Assembly (NCBI GenBank): GCA_903929035.1
Contig: CAIYTF010000168.1
Coordinates: 1 to 36,260, forward strand
Reading direction: 5' to 3'
DNA from: an uncultured Ignavibacteriales bacterium
Lineage (GTDB): Bacteria > Bacteroidota > Ignavibacteria > Ignavibacteriales > Ignavibacteriaceae
Length of the DNA stretch: 36,260 bases
The notes below the pieces were generated by a model. It saw nothing but the letters and a program-made list of their open reading frames with translations. It made no database searches and was not told the DNA's origin. Made by a program: the position numbers and the translations under genes. Shown in pieces: positions 2,391 to 36,260 of the stretch; the first letter of the stretch is position 1; each line of letters opens with the position of its first letter.

Positions 2391-2661
2391 GTAACTACTC
2401 AGCCTGTTCTTGAATTTGTCCCAAAGGGACTAAATCTGAATAACCGTGAGTGCTAACTCACGGAAAAGTAAGCCCAAACCAATAACGTCCCCGAAGGGGG
2501 GCGAACTAACTACGCGGCGTGAATTTGCCCCCTTCGGGGACATAGATGCTTTTTATCATACTCCCGTGAGTTGTCACTCACGGTTATTTAGATTTAGTCC
2601 CATTGGGACATAATTTAAGTACCGTATATTTTCTTGATTTCAGGAGACTAAAAGTAGTTAC
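2391..2661 (-). repeat. Nested-hairpin element, copy 1 (reverse orientation)
   Basis: A 271-bp palindromic element bounded by GTAACTACTCAGCC at the left and a degenerate AGTAGTTAC at the right. Inside are six short hairpins in mirror order: GTCCCAAAGGGAC, CCGTGAGT-N4-ACTCACGG (2444-2463), a CCCCGAAGGGG type, then the same three reversed. It is the reverse complement of the copies at 31966 and 36087. The right-hand terminal repeat and the last GTCCC hairpin (CATT in place of CTTT) have diverged. No transposase lies inside it. It resembles a REP/MITE-type non-autonomous repeat. Confidence 0.93.
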
Positions 2662-8058: not shown

Positions 8059-9573
8059 CTACTCTTTCACCGCGACCACCTTTTTCACCCCGTGGCAATC
8101 CGTGCATTTTTGAGAAAGCACCGAATTTGAGAGTTCACCCGGATGCGTGAACGGCATTCCTGATACGTTGCTTTGCTTGCCGATTCGTGCTGTTTCCTGT
8201 GCTATAATCGTATGGCAGCTTTCACATTTATTGCCGATTACATTGCCGCTTGCTGATTTATGCTTGCCATCGTGGCACCGGAAACATCCGTCATAATATA
8301 GATGCCCGATATTATTCGGATAGTTTTTCCAGTTTGCTTTCATTTCAGGGAAATAGTTTCGTGAATATAACCGTTGAACCGCGGCAATGGCTGAATCAAT
8401 CACAACTGATTTTTGCTTTGAAATGCCCGGATAATTTCCGGCATAAAAAGTCCGTATGGTGTTGGTGATTTCGTTTGCAGCTTCTGCTTTATCTCTATAA
8501 TCTTTTTCTAAAGCATCCACTGCCACCGTCTTTATATAAGGAAGCGATGCATCTATCGCGCCGGTTGATATGGCGTGGTTTACTTCCATATCAGGTTCGC
8601 GATAAATATGCGATGGGCGGTTATGGCAATCGATACAATCCATACGGCGCAGTTCTTCTTTTGATTTCTCGATCACGCTCTTATCAACATCAGTTGCATA
8701 AAATACTTCTTCGGTGCCGTCTTTTTTCACCCATTTGATATATGGAATTGATTGTCTCCTTTTATCGGAAAACCCGTAGAATACCGCGTTAGCCTCGTTA
8801 ACGTGCCAATGGATACCGCTTGCCACTCCCCCGTCATTTTTGCTTTGCCCGATTTTCACGAGCATTGTCATAGATTCGCGCGAGTTATTCTCATCAGGGA
8901 GGTAGTAATTTCGCTCAAGTTTTTTTTCGGTATAGAAATGTTTGGGCCAGTGGCACTGCTCGCAGGTTTGCTGGGCAGGGCGCAAGTTTTCAATCGGCGT
9001 GGGAATCGGACGTGAATATTTATTAAACATAACGGAATACATTTGATACGAACCCGATATTTTTGCCCGCACGAACCAGTCCGCTCCTGAACCTATATGA
9101 CATTTAACACACCCCACCCGCGAGTGCGGTGAATCTTTATAAGCAGTGTATTCAGGGGTCATAACTGAATGACAAATAGTACCGCAAAACTCATCTGAAT
9201 CCGTATATTCATAAGCCTTAAAACTGCCGAATGCCGATCCAACCAGCAAACCTATTGTTCCTGCCGTGAAAACAATTATTGTTCTTCTCTTTACCGGATC
9301 GTTAAAATCTATTACGGGGAGATGTTTACCTCTGACGATACCTGTCTTTTTTCTAATGTAATCTCTATATGCGCCATAGCCGATAAGTACAAGTCCGCTT
9401 ATCATTATCGATGGCAGAATAATGAATGCAATAATTCCCATATAGGGCTTTGGCTCTTTTGTAAAAAACTCGAGGATAATCAAAAAAGCAATCAGCCCCG
9501 CGCAAATTGCAGCAATTACAGAACCTGCTACTGATATCGGATTATAGAACTCATCAGGAAATTTTCTTTTCAT
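8059..9573 (-). CDS. Seven-haem NapC/NrfH-family inner-membrane cytochrome, ImcH-like
   Basis: A 504-residue protein with three hydrophobic segments (residues ~14-36, 45-67, 98-117) followed by a periplasmic cytochrome domain. Haem sites start at Cys130, 155, 204, 313, 430, 450 and 490. The first is CGTICH (three residues between the cysteines) and the other six are CXXCH. The block FCGTICHSVMTPEYTAY and the motif VGCVKCHIGSGADWFV are the NapC/NirT quinol-oxidising module. The seven haems and three TM segments resemble ImcH of Geobacter, which passes electrons from menaquinol to periplasmic cytochromes; that match is from memory of the family. No NrfA or NapA partner is present, which argues against a nitrite or nitrate role. 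It is the last gene of the operon, 27 bp after the cytochrome b gene. Confidence 0.88.
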   Translation of the reverse strand: MKRKFPDEFYNPISVAGSVIAAICAGLIAFLIILEFFTKEPKPYMGIIAFIILPSIMISGLVLIGYGAYRDYIRKKTGIVRGKHLPVIDFNDPVKRRTIIVFTAGTIGLLVGSAFGSFKAYEYTDSDEFCGTICHSVMTPEYTAYKDSPHSRVGCVKCHIGSGADWFVRAKISGSYQMYSVMFNKYSRPIPTPIENLRPAQQTCEQCHWPKHFYTEKKLERNYYLPDENNSRESMTMLVKIGQSKNDGGVASGIHWHVNEANAVFYGFSDKRRQSIPYIKWVKKDGTEEVFYATDVDKSVIEKSKEELRRMDCIDCHNRPSHIYREPDMEVNHAISTGAIDASLPYIKTVAVDALEKDYRDKAEAANEITNTIRTFYAGNYPGISKQKSVVIDSAIAAVQRLYSRNYFPEMKANWKNYPNNIGHLYYDGCFRCHDGKHKSASGNVIGNKCESCHTIIAQETARIGKQSNVSGMPFTHPGELSNSVLSQKCTDCHGVKKVVAVKE

Positions 9574-9600
9574 AATATATCTTAATTATATCTTTCAGTT

Positions 9601-10440
9601 TTAACGGTATGCAAAAATCATCGCGTATATTATCCATATAACGATGAAAAGACCAAGTGAGAGGGCAGTCCACCCGAAAATTTTAATTGTCCGAATGACA
9701 ATTGGCTGATAAGGTTCCACGAGGTAATTTTCCAGTTCGCCTTTTTCTACAAGCTCTTTATATTCGGCCGGACGGTCGAGCTTAAATTCTTCAAGAGGAA
9801 TACGCCCTGTAAAAATAACTATATCCATCGGAAATTTTTCAGGTCTGAGGTGCGTGTTGAAAAAATGCACGGTAAATATAAATCCCGTGGCAAGCAGTGC
9901 CTCATCGCTATGGATTATTGTTGCCACGTTCAATGCCCATCCGGGAAGGAATTGTGTGAAAAAAACCGGAAACCATAGCGTTGCACCTGTTGAGCCGATA
10001 ACGAATATACCCCAAAAAACTGCAAAGTAGTCAAACTTTTCCCAATAAGTCCATCTCCCGTATAGCGGACGTTCGCCCCTGAAAGCGAACCACTTCATTG
10101 ATGCTTTGAAATCATCCCAATCTTTCCTGTTAAATAGCATTGAATCCGGACCTAAAATAAGAGATTTCCAAGAATGAAATATTTTCCGTTTCATCCTGAT
10201 AATGTCGAAAATATGGGTGATAAAAACAATTATCATTATTATTGCCGCGAAGCGGTGAATATTTCCTGCAGTTTCAAATCCGCCGAGCAGATGCGAAAGA
10301 AAGTATGCCCAGCTTGTATATGCGAATTTTAATGACATACCCGTCAGTGCCAAACTAATAAAACTAACTATCATCAGGATATGCAATAGCCGCTGAAGGC
10401 GGGTGAATCGCTGAAACTGTAATTTTGGCTTTTTAGTCAT
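9601..10440 (-). CDS. Membrane cytochrome b subunit (FdnI/HydC-like)
   Basis: A 279-residue integral membrane protein with about five hydrophobic segments (roughly 18-36, 63-80, 136-158, 181-196, 252-277). Likely b-haem ligands are His20, His62, His76, His177 and His192, in the arrangement seen in formate dehydrogenase/hydrogenase cytochrome b subunits. It resembles the membrane half of the 13-haem fusion encoded upstream: both have HI or HR pairs, a W-x-Y/S-x-x-E-K-x-x-Y/Y-W region and a conserved FN-x-x-P/YPM tail. It lies 4 bp after the 19-haem gene, so the two are probably translated together. The 19-haem protein with this b subunit would form a split version of the fused c-b protein. Confidence 0.85.
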   Translation of the reverse strand: MTKKPKLQFQRFTRLQRLLHILMIVSFISLALTGMSLKFAYTSWAYFLSHLLGGFETAGNIHRFAAIIMIIVFITHIFDIIRMKRKIFHSWKSLILGPDSMLFNRKDWDDFKASMKWFAFRGERPLYGRWTYWEKFDYFAVFWGIFVIGSTGATLWFPVFFTQFLPGWALNVATIIHSDEALLATGFIFTVHFFNTHLRPEKFPMDIVIFTGRIPLEEFKLDRPAEYKELVEKGELENYLVEPYQPIVIRTIKIFGWTALSLGLFIVIWIIYAMIFAYR

Positions 10441-10444
10441 ATTA

Positions 10445-12433
10445 TTACTCCTTTCCCTGTTCGTTTTGTTTTATAGTATCCGGTTCTTCGGCTGAATCAA
10501 GTTTTTCTTTTTCTTCCAACTCTTTAAGTTTTTTCTTCCATTGAAATGATCGCGGCAGCCACAGCAAAGTGTGGGCACCGGCTATAATAAAAGTGCTGAC
10601 CAGAAGCCCCGTCATACCCCAGAATACCCAAAATAACCAAGGATATCTTTGTGGATCGTGATGGGTGGCGTGGGTAAGGTATCCCGCGAATCTTCGCGTG
10701 GCTCCCGGGTGGCATTTTTGGCAGGTTTGCGCGACATTCTGCCTGCTTAAATGTGAAGCAGGGTTAGTCGGGGGAAGAATATCGTGCGAACCGTGGCAAT
10801 CGTAACATTTTGCCGTTTTTGAATAGCCAAGCTGCGAAACTTTACCGTGGTAGGTTTCAAAATATGTTTTAGCAATTTCTTCGTGACACTTTCCGCACAT
10901 CGTCATCACGCCAAGTTTAAAATTATCTCCATCGGTGCGGGTGATAGTATGCGATGAATGGCAGTCGTTGCATTTTGGCAGTTTTTTATCAGTCTTTGTA
11001 ATATCAGGCGAATGGATGCTTTTTGCAAATTTTTCCTCGATACCGCTGTGACAATTACCGCAGGTCGCGGCAATATTCTTCGGGTTAATACTTGAAAGTG
11101 CATCAGAACTCGGTAATTCGCGATGTGCCGTGTGGCAGTCGGTGCATTTGGCGGTAACGGTAAGCCCGCTTTTCAAAAGCCCTTTGCCGTGAACACTTTC
11201 CCTGTATTCTTCTATAATGTTGTCGGCTTTGTTCTTTATTCTTTGGGCGGCAACCTGTCCGGGACGATGGCATTGAGCGCAAAGTTTTGGGATGTTGGTG
11301 GCGAAAATAGGAGATCGGCTGTCGCGCCTGCCAAGAATATGATGAGTTCCGTGGCATTCAGAGCAGATAGGGGCGTTTTCATCATTCTTTGCAAATAATT
11401 TTCCGTGAGTGCTGAGTTTATATTCCTCGCCGACTGCCGCGTGGCACGACGCGCATTCAACTTTCTTTGTAATAGATTCACACGGTCTAAGTTTCGATGG
11501 ATTAACAGTGGAATGGCATTGGCTGCAAGCAACCTTATTATGCCGCGAGTCTTTAGCTTCTGCAATATCAACAAACATTGAATGCCCGTCTTTCGATGAT
11601 TTCAATCCTTGGTTAGCGTGACATTTCATACAATCGCTGTCAGCCATACCTTGGTCATAGAATACTTTTCTTGCTTTATGGGGCTGATGACAGTCAACAC
11701 AAGCCGGCAGAACGTGGGCTTCTTTTTCCCAAAGTTCACCTTTTATTATTTTCCGGTGAACATTCTCTATACCCATATGGCATTGAGTGCAGGTAGCGGC
11801 AATATTTTTTCGCGCGATGCTTGAACGCGGATCGGTGTGCGGAAGAATACGGTGCGGTGTATGGCAGGAAGCACAGGTGGCCGATACGGTAAGACCCTTC
11901 TTTAATAATCCTTCGCCGTGAATACTCTCTGAATAATTTTCAATAATATGGTCCTGCGGAATATCGCGTTGTAATTGAACAGGCGAGCCTTCTCTATGGC
12001 ATTTCCCGCACAGGAAAGGAACTTTAAGAGCAAAGGTCATCGAGCGTGGGTCTTTTTTCTTGAGAATATCGTGATTTCCGTGGCAGTCAACACAGCCGGG
12101 AGCTAAGGGGTCGCCCTTGGCTTTTGCTTTCCCGTGCAAACCTTCAGAATATAGTTTTTGAGCTTCATCGTGGCAGGCTCCGCATTGGGCACGTTTCAGT
12201 TTTTCCTCGTGCGGAAAATCGGCACCTTTTAAGTCAACGTGACAGTCTATACATTTGTTTTTAATGTGGACAGAGCCTTTGAGCTTTTTTTCATCCACGT
12301 AAACGGAAAACGATTTCCCGTTTCGGGAGCCTTTGGCGGTTTTGTCATCGTGGCAGGAAAGACAGTCGCCGTTTTCCTGAGCAAAGGTGTAAAACCGTAA
12401 AAACAGGATTACTAAAAGAATAAGCCTTTTCAT
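10445..12433 (-). CDS. 19-haem c-type cytochrome with C-terminal membrane anchor
   Basis: A 662-residue exported protein: signal peptide at residues 1-18, nineteen CXXCH motifs between residues 24 and 574, then one membrane segment (~598-626) and a charged Glu/Lys-rich cytoplasmic tail. The haem region contains an internal duplication. Residues ~100-220 and ~343-462 align with an offset of about 242 residues; compare ESIHGEGLLKKGLTV at 169 with ESVHGKGLLKSGLTV at 412, each followed by a CXXCH and KNIAATC. Many H-G-x-x and C-x-x-C-H-G-x-H pairs suggest bis-His haem ligation. It probably acts as a periplasmic electron store or wire, paired with the cytochrome b encoded 4 bp downstream. No porin or extracellular partner is nearby. 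Confidence 0.92.
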   Translation of the reverse strand: MKRLILLVILFLRFYTFAQENGDCLSCHDDKTAKGSRNGKSFSVYVDEKKLKGSVHIKNKCIDCHVDLKGADFPHEEKLKRAQCGACHDEAQKLYSEGLHGKAKAKGDPLAPGCVDCHGNHDILKKKDPRSMTFALKVPFLCGKCHREGSPVQLQRDIPQDHIIENYSESIHGEGLLKKGLTVSATCASCHTPHRILPHTDPRSSIARKNIAATCTQCHMGIENVHRKIIKGELWEKEAHVLPACVDCHQPHKARKVFYDQGMADSDCMKCHANQGLKSSKDGHSMFVDIAEAKDSRHNKVACSQCHSTVNPSKLRPCESITKKVECASCHAAVGEEYKLSTHGKLFAKNDENAPICSECHGTHHILGRRDSRSPIFATNIPKLCAQCHRPGQVAAQRIKNKADNIIEEYRESVHGKGLLKSGLTVTAKCTDCHTAHRELPSSDALSSINPKNIAATCGNCHSGIEEKFAKSIHSPDITKTDKKLPKCNDCHSSHTITRTDGDNFKLGVMTMCGKCHEEIAKTYFETYHGKVSQLGYSKTAKCYDCHGSHDILPPTNPASHLSRQNVAQTCQKCHPGATRRFAGYLTHATHHDPQRYPWLFWVFWGMTGLLVSTFIIAGAHTLLWLPRSFQWKKKLKELEEKEKLDSAEEPDTIKQNEQGKE

Positions 12434-12647
12434 TTTTAAGCCTTGTGTAAATTTTTAAAGGTGCGTCTTATATGCCGCAAAATTTCTGAATCACAGTTTA
12501 AAAGTTAGGAAATTGTTTTTCTATTAAAGAAACCCTTTACATCTTCTAAATCTTACCTTTGCGATCTTCGCGTCTTCGCGTGAAAAATTGTTTATGTTAT
12601 TTCTTAACGAGTCCTAACGCGCTTCAAGAATCCGGTTAATCCGTGAT
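12434..12647. repeat. Spacer carrying the second 81-bp repeat and a GAATCACGG repeat
   Basis: This 214-bp gap inside the cytochrome operon holds the reverse copy of the 81-bp repeat at 12536-12616. Next to it is GAATCACGGATTAACCGGATT (minus strand, about 12633-12654), which begins inside the stop codon of the upstream 13-haem gene and recurs near 27650-27678. It is the only long gap in the operon, so it could contain a secondary promoter or a processing site. No promoter motif was recognised. Confidence 0.75.
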
Positions 12648-14804
12648 TCAGACAGTTTTGTTTTCTTCAGAAGCTGACTGCTCTTTTATTCTTTCCAGCT
12701 CAAGCGGGTGCTCATCTGCCATCTCTTCTTCGGTGATTGTGCCCTTTATCCAAGCTAAGTTCATCGGGTAAATGTCAGGATTAAATAAAACAAAATAAAA
12801 ATGCCAAACAAGGACAGCGAGGAATGCTAACCAAGCTTCGTAATAGTGTATTGTCCTGGCAACATCCCATCCTAATTTGGTGAAAAGACCAATAAAAGTA
12901 TTATCAAACCACAAAATAAATCCCGTTGCTGTCATTACAATTGTGCCCCATATCAAAGCCCAATATTCGGATTTTTCAATATAGCTGAATCGGTCGAGTT
13001 TTGGTTTTTCGGAACTCAACCCAATGTTATACTTTAAAACGCCAATTGCATCGGTAATATCTTTCAGCCTTGGCAGCAGATCAAAGAATAATTGCCGACC
13101 GCTCTGACTGAAAGCAAGATAGTATATATGGAACAAACTTGTGGTTACCAATATAACAGCCGCGATACGGTGGAGGATGCTTCTTAATTCAAAAGCATAA
13201 GGACTAATGTCTCTTATTGTACGCACCCACCAAGAATCTGGGAAATGCAGCATAAATCCGGTAAGTATCAACGTGAAGAAACCGACTGTAAGCAAAATAT
13301 GCTGTATTCTTTCGTTGAGTGTCATACGAAGGTATAGCGAGTGACCGTGATGTTCATAAGGGATAAGACCGCGCTGCCTCATCTTTTTGATTTTAGCTTT
13401 TTTGATAAAATCAATGAAATTATGGATAAACATACTGCCGATAGTAACACCGATAATAATCATATAGATGCTGACAATCCAATATAACAGCGGCTCTTCT
13501 TTTTCTTTTAACGTGATATGAACACTGCCAACGGTAAAATTCCTGTTGGCACCCGGATGACATTTGCCGCAGGTCTTTACCAAGTTCCGTTTATTTACTG
13601 TTGAAGTTGTATCTGCTGAAGCCTTAATATTGTGAATTCCGTGACAACTGCCGCAATTCGCTATGGTTACAGAACCACCTTTCAATGCCAATCCGTGGTA
13701 TGAGTCGGAAAATGTCTTGAAACGGTTTGCCTGCATTCCATACTTATCAGTGAGCGTCATAGAACTGTGGCACTTGGAACAAATTTGTTCTGCTACATTC
13801 CTGAATGCTACTGCCGCGTTCGGGTCATTATGCTTTAATATGGTATGTTCGCCGTGGCAATCGGTGCAGACAGGTGCATCATTGCTTCCTTTGGCGACTG
13901 CCAATCCGTGAACACTTGCCGCGTATTGCCGTGCTATTTCGGTATGACATTTTCCGCAGGTTGATGGAATATTCTTTTTAGCAATAGAAGCACTTTTGTC
14001 TTCGGTGCCTTGAATTGTATGAACTGTATGGCAGTCAACACAGCCGGCGGCAGCACCTTTTCCTGCACGCAATGCTTTCCCGTGCACGCTTTGGTCGTAG
14101 GACTGAATAAAACTTTTTTTGTAAGAAAACTTTTCACGCACGGCAGGGTCATCAAGATGGCAGGCAAGGCACAGTTTTTCTTGAGCTAATTTTGCTTTTA
14201 CCGTATCACCGCCAAAACCTTTAGTGGTAATTTGTTGGTTGTGGCAGGTTAAACAGGAAGGAGCTTCTTTTTCTCCTGATTGACCGGCTCTAAAATGCGA
14301 TGATTGAGCAAATTGATCTGCCTGCTCTTTATGACAATTCGCACAAATCGGGGCAGCTTTGGAAGTGCTGCTAAGTTTAATCTGCTTTGCATTGTGCGTG
14401 CCGTGACAGCCTTTACAATCTGTGCCTGCAGAAATTTCGCCGCCTTTCATCATTCGCGGGTGGAACTGGTGTTTTACAGGTGCGTTTTTGTGGCAGCTTT
14501 GGCAGTTAATGGGCTGGATATTTTCTTTGTGGGGAACATTGCTAATATCAAATCCGGTATGACAGGAAGCGCATTGCAATTTTTTATGAACAGAAACTGC
14601 TAAAACTTTATCGTCAACAAAGAGTTTTACTGTTTTTCCTTTCCGATCCAAAGAAAGGGTTTCATCACTATGGCAGCTCAGGCAATCTTCATTTGTTTGC
14701 GCTTTGTAAGAGGGAGCGATAGTTAAAGAAATTACAAAAAATAAGAAAGAACATTTCCTTAACCAGCCGGTAAGCCCGGCACAAAATTTAAAGTGAACTG
14801 CCAT
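12648..14804 (-). CDS. 13-haem cytochrome c fused to membrane cytochrome b, CbcL-like
   Basis: A 718-residue fusion. Residues 1-35 form an export signal. Thirteen CXXCH motifs lie between Cys41 and Cys412 in the periplasmic part. One hydrophobic segment (~438-462) then leads into a b-type cytochrome domain (~495-680) with His502, His545, His559, His653 and His668 as probable haem ligands. The same architecture, multihaem c plus HydC/FdnI-like b in one chain, is known from CbcL of Geobacter, a menaquinol oxidase used with low-potential acceptors; CbcL as recalled has nine c haems, so this one is larger. It is preceded by the small cytochrome c gene (27 bp) and followed by the 19-haem gene after a repeat-bearing spacer. 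The direction of electron flow is inferred. Confidence 0.88.
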   Translation of the reverse strand: MAVHFKFCAGLTGWLRKCSFLFFVISLTIAPSYKAQTNEDCLSCHSDETLSLDRKGKTVKLFVDDKVLAVSVHKKLQCASCHTGFDISNVPHKENIQPINCQSCHKNAPVKHQFHPRMMKGGEISAGTDCKGCHGTHNAKQIKLSSTSKAAPICANCHKEQADQFAQSSHFRAGQSGEKEAPSCLTCHNQQITTKGFGGDTVKAKLAQEKLCLACHLDDPAVREKFSYKKSFIQSYDQSVHGKALRAGKGAAAGCVDCHTVHTIQGTEDKSASIAKKNIPSTCGKCHTEIARQYAASVHGLAVAKGSNDAPVCTDCHGEHTILKHNDPNAAVAFRNVAEQICSKCHSSMTLTDKYGMQANRFKTFSDSYHGLALKGGSVTIANCGSCHGIHNIKASADTTSTVNKRNLVKTCGKCHPGANRNFTVGSVHITLKEKEEPLLYWIVSIYMIIIGVTIGSMFIHNFIDFIKKAKIKKMRQRGLIPYEHHGHSLYLRMTLNERIQHILLTVGFFTLILTGFMLHFPDSWWVRTIRDISPYAFELRSILHRIAAVILVTTSLFHIYYLAFSQSGRQLFFDLLPRLKDITDAIGVLKYNIGLSSEKPKLDRFSYIEKSEYWALIWGTIVMTATGFILWFDNTFIGLFTKLGWDVARTIHYYEAWLAFLAVLVWHFYFVLFNPDIYPMNLAWIKGTITEEEMADEHPLELERIKEQSASEENKTV

Positions 14805-14831
14805 ATATGATTTTTATTTCTGCTCGATATG

Positions 14832-15179
14832 TTATTTTTTTGCTGACTTTAAGGTGCCAAGCCAATCTGCCAGCTTCTTCAAGTCTTCATCAGGTCCTTT
14901 GAAAGAGACAGGATGAGCTTTCCCTTCCATTTTTTCTTGTTTTACTAAATATTTTTTTAAAAAGTCAGCGTTTTTCACAGAACCGATAGTTGAAAGATCG
15001 GGAGCCGGTTTTTTCGACTTAGTTTCGAGTTTAGCTGACTGAACCGCGTGGCAGGTTCCGCATTTTGAAGCAACAAACACTTTTTTACCTGGAGATTCTT
15101 CACCAGCACTTGCAAATGCAGCTCCGTAAAGAGCGATAATAAAAAACAGGAATAAAATATAAGCGAGTACATTTTTCAT
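14832..15179 (-). CDS. Small monohaem cytochrome c
   Basis: A 115-residue exported protein with a signal peptide (residues ~1-24, ending FASA) and a single haem site CGTCHAV near residue 40. A Met in the KMEGKAHPV segment near residue 84 is a plausible sixth ligand. It ends in the KKLADWLGTLK helix common in class I cytochromes c. It is probably a soluble periplasmic shuttle for the larger membrane-bound cytochromes. It is the first gene after the sigma-54-type promoter, with the putative -12 element about 44 bp from its ATG and an AAAGGA Shine-Dalgarno-like stretch just upstream. Confidence 0.9.
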   Translation of the reverse strand: MKNVLAYILFLFFIIALYGAAFASAGEESPGKKVFVASKCGTCHAVQSAKLETKSKKPAPDLSTIGSVKNADFLKKYLVKQEKMEGKAHPVSFKGPDEDLKKLADWLGTLKSAKK

Positions 15180-16190: not shown

Positions 16191-16424
16191 ATTAATTTTT
16201 TATTATGATAAATTGTCAAGTTTCACAAGATTGTTTTAAGAAAACTTGAATAATAATTTTGTTGTAATAATAATAATTTTAATTTAAACCCCCAAGGGGT
16301 TTGTAAAAAAAAGTTTTGGCTTTAACTCATACCTATAAAATTACCCCAGCATCTAAAGGCTGGGGTAAAAAATGTAAATCAGAACCCGGGCTTTAGCCCA
16401 AATTTTGCTTAAATCGAGAGTATG
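16191..16424. repeat. Cluster of three hairpins between HEPN and beta-propeller genes
   Basis: This non-coding spacer has three perfect hairpins: AAACCCC-CAA-GGGGTTT (16286-16302), TACCCCAGC-N8-GCTGGGGTA (16342-16367) and GGGCT-TT-AGCCC (16388-16399). Read on the minus strand, the middle one is followed by ATTTTATAG and could end the peptidase-cluster transcript. The GC-rich hairpins look like interspersed REP-type elements. The 50 bp before the HEPN start include TTGACA on the minus strand, too weak a match to call a promoter. Confidence 0.6.
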
Positions 16425-31427: not shown

Positions 31428-31965
31428 AGTTTTTCCTAAGATTACTTAAAATAAATATTTATTGAATTAAAATTTTTGACATAGTATTCGAATCATCATC
31501 CAATCGAAAAGGGCATAAGTATCCCTGCCGCGAATGTGACTATTAAAAAAATTATGTCAGGATTAAGGACTATCTGTACCTACAACAGAGAAAATTTCCG
31601 TTGGAGTAAGATGAGAGATGTTTTAATGTCTGTTTATTTGAGTAAAATGAATTTGTATCTGTAAAAATTTTCATTGCTGTTGATTTCTGTAATAAAACAT
31701 AATGACTGCAATGGATTTCATTGCATCATAAAAAAAATATGTTTGGGTTTAAAAAAAGGTATTACAGAGAACAACAACAACGGCAGTCACCGCTGAAGTC
31801 GATAGAGGTATTCCGCGGAACTTGCCTGCCGGAATAAAAAAGGGATGTGTTAGAAATATCTAACAAATTTGAGAAAATCATAAACACAATATAATAAAAA
31901 TATTTCATTTGTCAATACATTTTTTCCATAAAATAATTTAACTGTTTAGTACTTCACCAAAAATA
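31428..31965. other. Long upstream region of the secretion cluster with an operator-like inverted repeat
   Basis: About 540 bp without a convincing gene. It contains a perfect inverted repeat TGCAATG-N5-CATTGCA at 31707-31725 and a palindrome TTCCGCGGAA at 31811-31820. This is where the promoter of the minus-strand cluster should lie, but no sigma-54 match and no clear -35/-10 pair was found. Confidence 0.45.
31707..31725. promoter_or_regulatory. Perfect 7-bp inverted repeat, possible operator
   Basis: TGCAATG-GATTT-CATTGCA has a two-fold symmetric form with centre-to-centre spacing of about 12 bp, near one helical turn. This is a common shape for a dimeric helix-turn-helix repressor site. 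It lies 280 bp upstream of the first gene of the secretion cluster. Confidence 0.4.
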
Positions 31966-32230
31966 GTAACTACTCAGCCTCCTGAAATCAAGAAAATATA
32001 TGGTATGGATATTATGTCCCAAAGGGACTAAATTTGAATAACCGTGAGTGACAACTCACGGGAGAATGATAAAAAGCATCTATGTCCCCGAAGGGGGCAA
32101 ATTCACGCCGCATTAGTTCGCCCCCTTCGGGGACATTATTTGTTTGGGCTTACTTTTCCGTGAGTTAGCACTCACGGTTATTCAAATTTAGTCCCTTTGG
32201 GACAAATTCAAGAACAGGCTGAGTAGTTAC
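31966..32230 (+). repeat. Nested-hairpin element, copy 2 (complete)
   Basis: A 265-bp element with perfect 15-bp terminal inverted repeats, GTAACTACTCAGCCT at the left and its complement at the right. Six hairpins lie inside in mirror order: GTCCCAAAGGGAC (32016-32028), CCGTGAGT-N4-ACTCACGG (32042-32061), GTCCCCGAAGGGGGC (32084-32098), its complement (32120-32134), a second CCGTGAGT hairpin (32158-32177) and GTCCCTTTGGGAC (32191-32203). It has no open reading frame. This is the best-preserved copy; its left half matches copy 3 almost exactly. Confidence 0.95.
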
Positions 32231-34171: not shown

Positions 34172-35514
34172 ACACTAAAGGTTCGATATTAATTGTTGAT
34201 GATGAAGAAATTGTCAGGCAGTCTTTGTTTGATTGGTTTGAAGAGGATAATTACGAAACAGTAGCGGCTGAGACCGCGGAAATAGCACTAAAGAAATACA
34301 GGGAAAAGAAATTCGACCTCATTCTTGCAGATATGAAAATGCCCGGGATGAGCGGATTGCAGCTGCTGGAAAAAATTAAGGAAATTGACGGTGACGCGTT
34401 CGTGATAATCATTACCGCGTTCGCCTCTGTTTCAACTGCTATTCAGGCATTGAAAGACGGTGCTTATGACTACATAACCAAACCCGTTGACCCCGATGAA
34501 CTTACACATCTTGTTGAAAAGGCATTCAGGCAAATACATCTGAAGAAAGAGAACTTTCAGCTAAAATCAAGTTACGATGAAATGATTCGTCCCGATAACC
34601 TTGTCGGTGACAGCGAGCAGATGCAAAAAGTGTTTTCACTCATTCAAACAGTCGCGCCGGCTAACACCACTGTAATGATTCGCGGTGAAAGCGGAACCGG
34701 CAAGGAATTAGTCGCGCGCGCGATTCACATTAACAGCGCGAGAAAATATTTTCCGATTGTAACAGTAAACTGCGGCGCACTTGCAGAATCAATTTTAGAA
34801 AGCGAATTATTCGGTCACGAAAAAGGGGCATTCACCGGCGCGCATTACAAACGCAAAGGAAAATTTGAGCTTGCCGATGGCGGTACTATCTTTCTTGACG
34901 AAATCGGCTCTGTCACGCCCAAAACGCAAGTTGAGCTATTGCGCGTTCTGGATACAAAACAATTTACAAGGCTTGGAGGAAACGATGTTATTAACAGCGA
35001 TTTCCGAATTATCACGGCTACAAATGAATCGTTAGAGGCAATGGTGAAAGACGGGCGTTTCAGGGAAGACCTTTACTACCGGTTAAACGTGTTCACGATA
35101 TTTATTCCGCCGCTCCGCGAACGTGCAGAAGATATTCCCGCCCTCGCGTTTTATTTCTTGAAGAAATTTTCAACCGCTATGAACAAGCGTATTCACGACA
35201 TAGACTGCGAAGCAATTGACTTTATGACCCGGTACTCCTGGCCCGGCAACATTCGCGAATTAGAAAATGCCATCGAGCGGGCAGTGGTTATTTGTAAAGA
35301 ATCGTCTATAGGTATTCAGGATTTGCCTATCACTCGGGACAGATTTACAGTATCCGGCGCGGAGGATAAATCGCTGGCTGCCCTTGAAAAAAGATACATT
35401 GCAGCAATGCTATCGGAAAATTCTTGGAATATTTCAAAAACCGCGGAACAATTGGCAATTGACAGGGTTACATTGTATAATAAAATCAACAAATACAATC
35501 TGCAAAAGCCCTGA
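34168..35514 (+). CDS. NtrC-family sigma-54-dependent response regulator
   Basis: A 448-residue three-domain regulator. The receiver (1-120) has the acidic pair Asp11/Asp12, phosphorylation site Asp55 (ILADMKMPG) and switch residues Thr83 and Lys105. The AAA+ domain (145-385) has Walker A GESGTGKE (173-180), the sigma-54 contact loop GAFTGA (220-225), Walker B TIFLDEIG (240-247) and the arginine-finger region FREDLYYRLNV. The Fis-type helix-turn-helix (405-445) has NISKTAEQLAIDRVTLYNKI. All functional motifs are intact, so it should open sigma-54 promoters when phosphorylated by the upstream kinase. Its start overlaps the kinase stop (ATGA). The near-perfect sigma-54 site at 15224-15238 is a candidate target. 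Confidence 0.95.
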   Translation: MNTKGSILIVDDEEIVRQSLFDWFEEDNYETVAAETAEIALKKYREKKFDLILADMKMPGMSGLQLLEKIKEIDGDAFVIIITAFASVSTAIQALKDGAYDYITKPVDPDELTHLVEKAFRQIHLKKENFQLKSSYDEMIRPDNLVGDSEQMQKVFSLIQTVAPANTTVMIRGESGTGKELVARAIHINSARKYFPIVTVNCGALAESILESELFGHEKGAFTGAHYKRKGKFELADGGTIFLDEIGSVTPKTQVELLRVLDTKQFTRLGGNDVINSDFRIITATNESLEAMVKDGRFREDLYYRLNVFTIFIPPLRERAEDIPALAFYFLKKFSTAMNKRIHDIDCEAIDFMTRYSWPGNIRELENAIERAVVICKESSIGIQDLPITRDRFTVSGAEDKSLAALEKRYIAAMLSENSWNISKTAEQLAIDRVTLYNKINKYNLQKP

Positions 35515-36047
35515 TGACCTCGATGGTTTTTATCGCGCCCCTGCAGCTTTCCAATATAGATATTCTGCCGGATATTCAACAACATATTGTTAACCGCCTG
35601 CAGTGTGATACGCGATATATTGACCTGCCGTTAGATGTTGAGTCAGTAAAATCACCGGAACGAAATCAGTATTACTCAACAAAGCTGATAGCACAGGCTT
35701 TGAAACTGACCAATGAATATGAAGGGACAGTGCTGCTGCTTGTTGATGTGGACATATACATACCAATATTTACATTCCTGTTTGGCGAGGCGCAGCTGCG
35801 CGGAAAACATTCTATTGTTTCGCTATGCCGGCTGCACGAAGAATTTTACACCGGCAAAAGCGACAACAAACTGCTCTTCCGGCGCGCGATGAAAGAAATC
35901 TATCACGAGCTCGGGCACAACTTCGGATTATTGCACTGCAACAATTGGGAATGTGTTATGCACTCTTCATCGGCAATAGAAGAAGTGGATTTGAAAGGGG
36001 ACTTTTATTGCAAGCAATGCAGAGCAGCAGCCGGAATCGCGGATTAA
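35514..36047 (+). CDS. amzA: Archaemetzincin-family zinc metallopeptidase
   Basis: A 177-residue protein without a signal peptide, so probably cytoplasmic. It has the archaemetzincin signature HELGHNFGLLHC (His131, Glu132, His135, Gly138, His141, Cys142). The second structural zinc site follows: Cys147 in CVMHSS and the CKQC pair (Cys166, Cys169). The extended metzincin helix, Met-turn region (VMH) and length are typical of the archaeal/bacterial family. Substrates of this family are poorly known; aminopeptidase-like activity has been reported for human members. The ATG overlaps the regulator stop codon by one base (TGATG), so it belongs to the kinase/regulator operon. Confidence 0.92.
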   Translation: MTSMVFIAPLQLSNIDILPDIQQHIVNRLQCDTRYIDLPLDVESVKSPERNQYYSTKLIAQALKLTNEYEGTVLLLVDVDIYIPIFTFLFGEAQLRGKHSIVSLCRLHEEFYTGKSDNKLLFRRAMKEIYHELGHNFGLLHCNNWECVMHSSSAIEEVDLKGDFYCKQCRAAAGIAD

Positions 36048-36086: not shown

Positions 36087-36260
36087 GTAACTACTCAGCC
36101 TCCTGAAATCAAGAAAATATACGGTGCTAATATTATGTCCCAAAGGGACTAAATTTGAATAACCGTGAGTGACAACTCACGGGAGAATGATAAAAAGCAT
36201 CTATGTCCCCGAAGGGGGCAAATTCACGCCGCATTAGTTCGCCCCCTTTCGGGGACGTTA
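36087..36260 (+). repeat. Nested-hairpin element, copy 3 (truncated by window end)
   Basis: It begins with the same terminal repeat GTAACTACTCAGCCT and follows copy 2 nearly base for base through the GTCCC, CCGTGAGT and both GTCCCC-type hairpins, then leaves the window. It has the same orientation as copy 2 and begins 40 bp after the archaemetzincin stop codon. Confidence 0.93.

Follow-up and report, generated by a model that had tools for sequence, protein, structure and literature searches.

The window analyzed here is a stretch of 36,260 bp that makes up one whole contig (C168 of 222) in the 3.36-Mb genome of an uncultured Ignavibacteriales bacterium, and its right end lies inside a copy of the element described below. 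It carries a multiheme cytochrome c gene cluster (8059-15179), in which the two genes tested match Cytochrome_C7 and NapC/NirT, and a gene for a peptidase of family M54 (archaemetzincin-like; 35514-36047) just upstream of the third element copy. Two further hairpins, ACCCCAGCATCTAAAGGCTGGGGT and GGGCTTTAGCCC, stand at 16343-16399, and hairpin GGGCTTTAGCCC is also found as cargo of a 224-bp element with type-a ends (see below) at C36:16752-16975.

At 31966-32230 lies a 265-bp palindrome bounded by terminal inverted repeats (TIRs), which serves as the reference copy. The three copies that the original prediction had placed in the window are all present, and in agreement with it we found no open reading frame (ORF) of at least 100 aa within the element. 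The features are as follows.

31966..32230, + strand: full element copy, reference, 265 bp, without target-site duplication (TSD)
31966..31980, + strand: left TIR, type a, GTAACTACTCAGCCT, from inverted-repeat analysis
32216..32230, - strand: right TIR, type a, from inverted-repeat analysis
32016..32028, no strand assigned: hairpin A, GTCCCAAAGGGAC, with a tip that differs among copies
32042..32061, no strand assigned: hairpin B, CCGTGAGTGACAACTCACGG
32084..32098, no strand assigned: hairpin C, GTCCCCGAAGGGGGC
32120..32134, no strand assigned: hairpin C', GCCCCCTTCGGGGAC, with arm and tip lengths that differ among copies
32158..32177, no strand assigned: hairpin B'
32191..32203, no strand assigned: hairpin A'
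2391..2661, - strand: second copy, reverse, with an intact TIR at 2391-2405 and a degenerate one at the other end, without TSD
36087..36260, + strand: third copy, ended by the contig end, with one terminus visible

The 15-bp TIRs, which had been attributed to all three copies, are perfect in the reference copy, but one TIR of the copy at 2391 is degenerate and the third copy shows a single end. Inside the reference TIRs are inverted arms of 47 bp (96%) and an inner pair of 27 bp (85%), and six local hairpins stand in the order A-B-C-C'-B'-A', just as predicted. The fold is exceptionally stable both as single-stranded DNA (-87.7 kcal/mol, z = -16.8) and as RNA (-153.3, z = -16.4), with none of 200 dinucleotide shuffles equaling it in either case.

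Copy number, distribution, and target-site duplications

Three copies is the correct count for the window, but the genome holds many more. When the whole genome and its relatives were searched, as the original prediction had proposed, left ends (GTAACTACTCAGCCTCCTGAAATCAAG, at most 3 mismatches) were found 53 times and right ends (GTAACTACTCAGCCTGTTCTTGAAT) 74 times genome-wide, with no match to either reversed-pattern control. Pairing of these ends gave 18 full copies and left 35 left and 56 right ends alone, many of them at contig ends. We put the number of element copies at approximately 65 to 75, which is only an estimate because short forms are counted among the ends. The element occupies many contig ends and partly explains the fragmentation of the assembly.

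Among the genomes searched, the element is restricted to one species. None of 58 other genomes (1 from the same genus, 35 from the same family, and 22 from the same order) contained it, and the left end had no match in 84,980 named genomes, a set that may omit the window's own genome and very near ones. Matches to GTAACTRYTYAGSY occurred once or twice in 21 of the 58 relatives, a frequency close to that of the reversed control, except for a convergent pair in G001, a sister species in the same genus. An exact 14-mer of the type-a TIR in G018, located inside an ORF and with no partner in the 7 kb examined, was treated as a chance match, as was a single match of the A/B hairpin string in a viral contig, around which there was no element.

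The original prediction saw no clear TSD, and this is right for both readable copies in the window: the sequences flanking the copy at 31966 (CAAAAATA and ATTTTCTT) do not match, nor do those flanking the copy at 2391, as judged by eye. The family as a whole, however, transposes with duplication of exactly 8 bp of target. Both flanks were readable in 17 of the 18 full copies (one was dropped for an unreadable flank), and of these, 7 have an exact 8-bp TSD, 1 more matches at 7 of 8 positions, and 9, including the window copy, have none. Among the lone ends, 15 of the 35 left ends have an exact 8-mer partner among the 56 right ends, for a total of 17 matches between contigs at offset 0, compared with none at 11 control offsets; 4 of the 17 are ambiguous, as two left ends and two right ends carry CTCTTTTT and yield four matches instead of the two expected. 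Such TSDs could guide scaffolding of the assembly by pairing contig ends. In three of the full copies without a TSD, the flanking 8-mer recurs at an element end located on a different contig. This suggests intercopy recombination or the misjoining of repeats, and we assume that the TSD-less full copies in general arose by such recombination or by misassembly.

Termini and a probable IS66-family transposase

The termini of the element are GTAACTACTCAGCC, and identical termini also bound fragments of IS66-family transposase genes. Genome-wide, 138 sites lie within one mismatch of GTAACTACTCAGCCT and 254 within one mismatch of GTAACTRYTYAG (control, 7), and most such sites fall into two types, type a (GTAACTACTCAG) and type b (GTAACTGTTTAG). 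Exact 8-bp repeats flank 8 of 21 type-a pairs and 5 of 17 type-b pairs at other elements, with chance pairs included in these counts.

At two loci (L041 and L042), a type-a TIR is followed by an IS66-like N terminus. The N-terminal piece at L041 contains an SKPPSSD motif and shares 31% identity with the intact IS66 protein across 52 aa (E = 2e-5), while L042 is a shortened version whose C-terminal peptide matches positions 354 to 380 of 387 in the IS66 transposase model NF033517 (E = 0.0018). A C terminus similar to that of L042 stands ahead of a type-a TIR at L040. For type b, the IS66 C terminus (PF03050) at L056 is followed directly by a type-b TIR (GTAACTGTTTAGG), with a type-a TIR 48 bp further on. 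The assignment of type a to the IS66 family thus draws on short, partly frame-broken pieces, and a Pfam search with the 90-aa type-a N terminus alone returned no IS66 model. IS66 TIRs typically start with GTAA.

An intact relative is present in G001 (MAG CAIWTC010000648.1), where a 1,610-bp IS66-family IS with perfect TIRs (GTAACTATTTAGGT), and with no TSD at its site, encodes a 465-aa IS66 transposase (NF033517, E = 1e-76; PF03050, E = 8e-38). Its ends are similar to the type-a termini, and the type-b transposase fragments of the window's genome are 72 to 81% identical to it. Within the assembly, PF03050 recovered four C-terminal fragments and an N-terminal query three fragments, with no intact transposase of type a or b among them; IS copies may be missing from the 222 contigs. 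A table in PMC3281130 gives 8-bp repeats for the published IS66-family elements ISPpa5a and ISPpa7.

The element is less than 500 bp long, non-coding, and bounded by TIRs, and it occurs in high copy number at unrelated sites with a TSD of fixed length, as bacterial MITEs do; it also has termini in common with IS66 fragments and an 8-bp TSD, as expected of an IS66-derived MITE. We therefore consider it highly likely that it is an IS66-type MITE, recently spread to some 65 to 75 copies in one lineage by an IS66-family transposase supplied in trans. An IS66-family IS with GTAACTACTCAGCC termini would once have been present in this genome and would have been the source of the MITE ends. Its DDE transposase, acting in trans, would have moved the MITE, or a copy of it, into intergenic sites rich in AT, each insertion duplicating 8 bp of target. 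Amplification would have been recent and confined to one Ignavibacteriales-related lineage, and the parent IS would afterwards have been lost or have escaped assembly. Mobilization in trans had been among the original suggestions, and the 8-bp TSDs and the GTAACT termini on IS66 fragments lend it support, although the supply in trans is our inference. The same two features point to an IS66-family DDE enzyme and not to the Y1 enzyme of IS200/IS605. As to whether the element might be merely the end of a known IS, this is half the case, as it has the ends of an IS66-family IS but not the interior of one.

An alternative is that the element is of the REP/REPIN or TIRtron type and was spread in single-stranded form by a hairpin-recognizing Y1 transposase (IS200/IS605-like, RAYT, or TIRYT). 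Its interior of inverted hairpin pairs does resemble BIMEs and REPINs, two Y1 transposase genes are present in the genome, one of them adjoining GTAG-tagged hairpins of a kind that type-b elements contain as well, and PMC3733652 describes RAYT genes with long TIRs on either side. For the whole element, this explanation is contradicted by the exact 8-bp TSDs. Y1 enzymes are not expected to create target duplications. Moreover, mobility tracks the TIR and not the hairpins, since exact 8-bp repeats also flank two forms, of 91 bp (C127:35090) and 200 bp (C6:240), that have the same TIRs and lack hairpins B and C. The search for transposases that had been advised turned up both kinds; at the loci inspected the A/B/C hairpins flank neither Y1 gene, and IS66 fragments stand at the very same TIRs. 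Movement of the element by Y1 is therefore improbable, and a Y1 enzyme is possible as the route by which cargo entered.

Hairpin conservation and neighboring genes

The element might instead be a selected transcription boundary (a terminator or insulator) or an mRNA-stabilizing hairpin array, the first of which had also been proposed. Its positions are compatible with this, since 64 of 65 copies overlap no ORF of at least 100 aa and the remaining one merely touches an ORF, and so is its pattern of variation. Of 39 copies that span 200 bp or more of the 265-bp element, 37 were aligned after exclusion of the C56 chimera and the C89 family-c element (see below), and the mean minor fraction was 0.015 in stems, 0.033 in other core columns, and 0.080 in loop tips; only 2 of 208 circular shifts gave loop-tip variability as high. 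Stem pairing across these 37 copies is 97.7%. However, covariation did not exceed that of shuffles (112 to 122 of 500 were as high), and compensatory change was seen in only 1 of 58 pairs. Covariation is not expected in copies this young, and its absence neither proves nor excludes a role.

Other evidence also argues against a boundary. The element contains no terminator-like site and is absent from all 58 relatives. Its neighbors were assessed in 65 of 82 copies (those below 100 bits were left out), 16 of which had both neighboring genes within 700 bp; these were divergent in 6 cases, tandem in 7, and convergent in 3, and so there is no preference for convergent sites. We regard a selected boundary or stabilizing array as very improbable, and the element may influence transcription as a side effect. 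A structured non-coding RNA family at many loci is hardly credible: the predicted RNA fold is very stable, but there is neither covariation nor an Rfam match anywhere in the window, TIRs and TSDs are present, and deletion forms are repeated as well.

Hairpin cargo shared between terminal frames

Elements with the same ends carry different interiors. Type-a TIRs whose subterminal arms are alike surround the six-hairpin block of the 265-bp element, a single hairpin in a 91-bp form found in five copies (L033, L034, L035, L039, and L047), and a different long hairpin in a 125-bp form (C218). Two further type-a elements differ throughout, the 224-bp element of C36, which contains GGGCTAAAGCCC and CTCCGCCAT hairpins, and the 200-bp element of C6, which has no such hairpins. 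Because type-a elements move with other interiors or almost none, the A-B-C-C'-B'-A' interior is cargo and not transposition apparatus. Type-b TIRs enclose GTAG-tagged hairpins (TTCCCGTTAGGGAAT...TTTGTAGAAAA) resembling those beside a Y1 transposase gene at L032 (C219, ~10030-11043) and, at C64, CCCCTCCCTTATAAGGGAGGGG-like hairpins with a TSD matching at 8 of 8 positions. The L032 gene itself has an unpaired type-b TIR on one side and, on the other, a type-b MITE of 237 bp flanked by an exact 8-bp TSD (ATTTTTTC).

A third frame, family c, has an unrelated TIR (TACCAAACCGAYAACAAGTT; 94 ends genome-wide, control 0) and measures ~356 to 385 bp when full, with examples at L154 (225-597) and L153 (197-573). 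Its ends adjoin TNA in 52 of 61 cases. A 27-bp match to this family in G054 (E = 6e-4) was set aside; hairpins lie nearby, and the family-c TIR was not seen in the 451 bases there. Family c has its own block of A-B-C-C'-B'-A'-type architecture, including the same AAATTTGAATAACCGTGAG unit as the window element. In a chimera at C56:6342-6672, positions 2 to 236 resemble family c (86%) and positions 216 to 331 the window element (96%), with the crossover in hairpin C', and a hybrid at C46:16686-16950 has family-c ends around the hairpin cargo of type b, of which 107 bp and 53 bp each match C34 at 92%. Together with the varied interiors under the same TIRs, the chimera and the hybrid establish that different TIR frames have hairpin cargo in common.

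Frames are also nested. On C35, C50, and C55 (L187, L071, and L191), an identical 29 bp of type-b end (GTAACTGTTTAGGTCAAAAAACAAATATG) precedes a type-a element while the sequence further out differs, and so a type-a element and the type-b frame around it appear to have spread together. In the window, TTAACTGTTTAG at 31938-31949, 28 bp left of the reference copy, differs from a type-b terminus by one mismatch and is possibly a remnant of such nesting.

These patterns invite comparison with known systems. With single-ORF IS66-family ISs, the element shares GTAACT-type termini, the 8-bp TSD, transposase remnants at identical termini, and an intact relative within the same genus, but it is non-coding and most of its 265 bp is not IS66 sequence. 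Like the MITEs Nezha, Chunjie, MITEPsy1, and QMITE, it is short, TIR-bounded, non-coding, intergenic, and high in copy number, with a TSD (sections of PMC10969869 and PMC3189936; MITEs in general are also treated in a portion of PMC9769881), whereas here the interior consists of nested hairpins shared among different TIR frames. The word IS66 is absent from the bacterial MITE review PMC10969869, and in the open-access literature searched no title dealt with MITEs derived from IS66 or with the exchange of cargo among MITE frames, which is weak evidence of novelty.

The likeness to REP/BIME/REPIN repeats and their RAYTs (REPINs are described in part of PMC3116915) lies in the inverted pairs of short hairpins, the intergenic location, and the GTAG-tagged hairpins that type-b elements hold in common with the surroundings of the resident Y1 gene. 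In contrast, the A/B/C hairpins have no clear GTAG tag, the whole element moves with 8-bp TSDs, and the A/B/C hairpins, where inspected, are confined to TIR elements. In 308 kb of loci, the A/B string has 142 matches, 89 of which are not enclosed by a TIR on each side; 40 of these were inspected and, as far as compared, belong to copies that are truncated by a contig end or have a degenerate TIR. Many copies have a CGTC-like string ahead of hairpin C', as read on the opposite strand, with a stem unlike the published REP description. REP dimers inside longer palindromes, namely, GTAG-15 of Anabaena variabilis and CGTC-1 of Halothiobacillus neapolitanus, likewise place hairpins within an outer inverted repeat (PMC3733652), but section 7 of that paper describes no transposon, TSD, or exchange between outer repeats.

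The original prediction judged the element to be more complex than an ordinary REP or MITE. It is a MITE, common in kind and very probably of the IS66 type, but with an interior of REP/BIME-like hairpin cargo shared with other elements; this shared cargo and the nested frames are its new aspect. We tentatively propose that the hairpin blocks may be cassettes exchangeable among type-a and type-b (IS66-like) TIRs and the unrelated family-c TIRs at TNA sites, either by recombination at shared palindromes or by Y1-mediated single-strand hairpin insertion, such that REP-like palindromes would ride on DDE ends and frames of type b enclosing type a would amplify as units. MITEs and REP/REPIN repeats are usually treated apart, each with its own enzymes (DDE versus Y1). 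Here, MITE-type TIR frames carry REP-like palindromes that recur under different termini, and a nested compound has apparently spread, making this genome a test case for cargo exchange among short mobile repeats.
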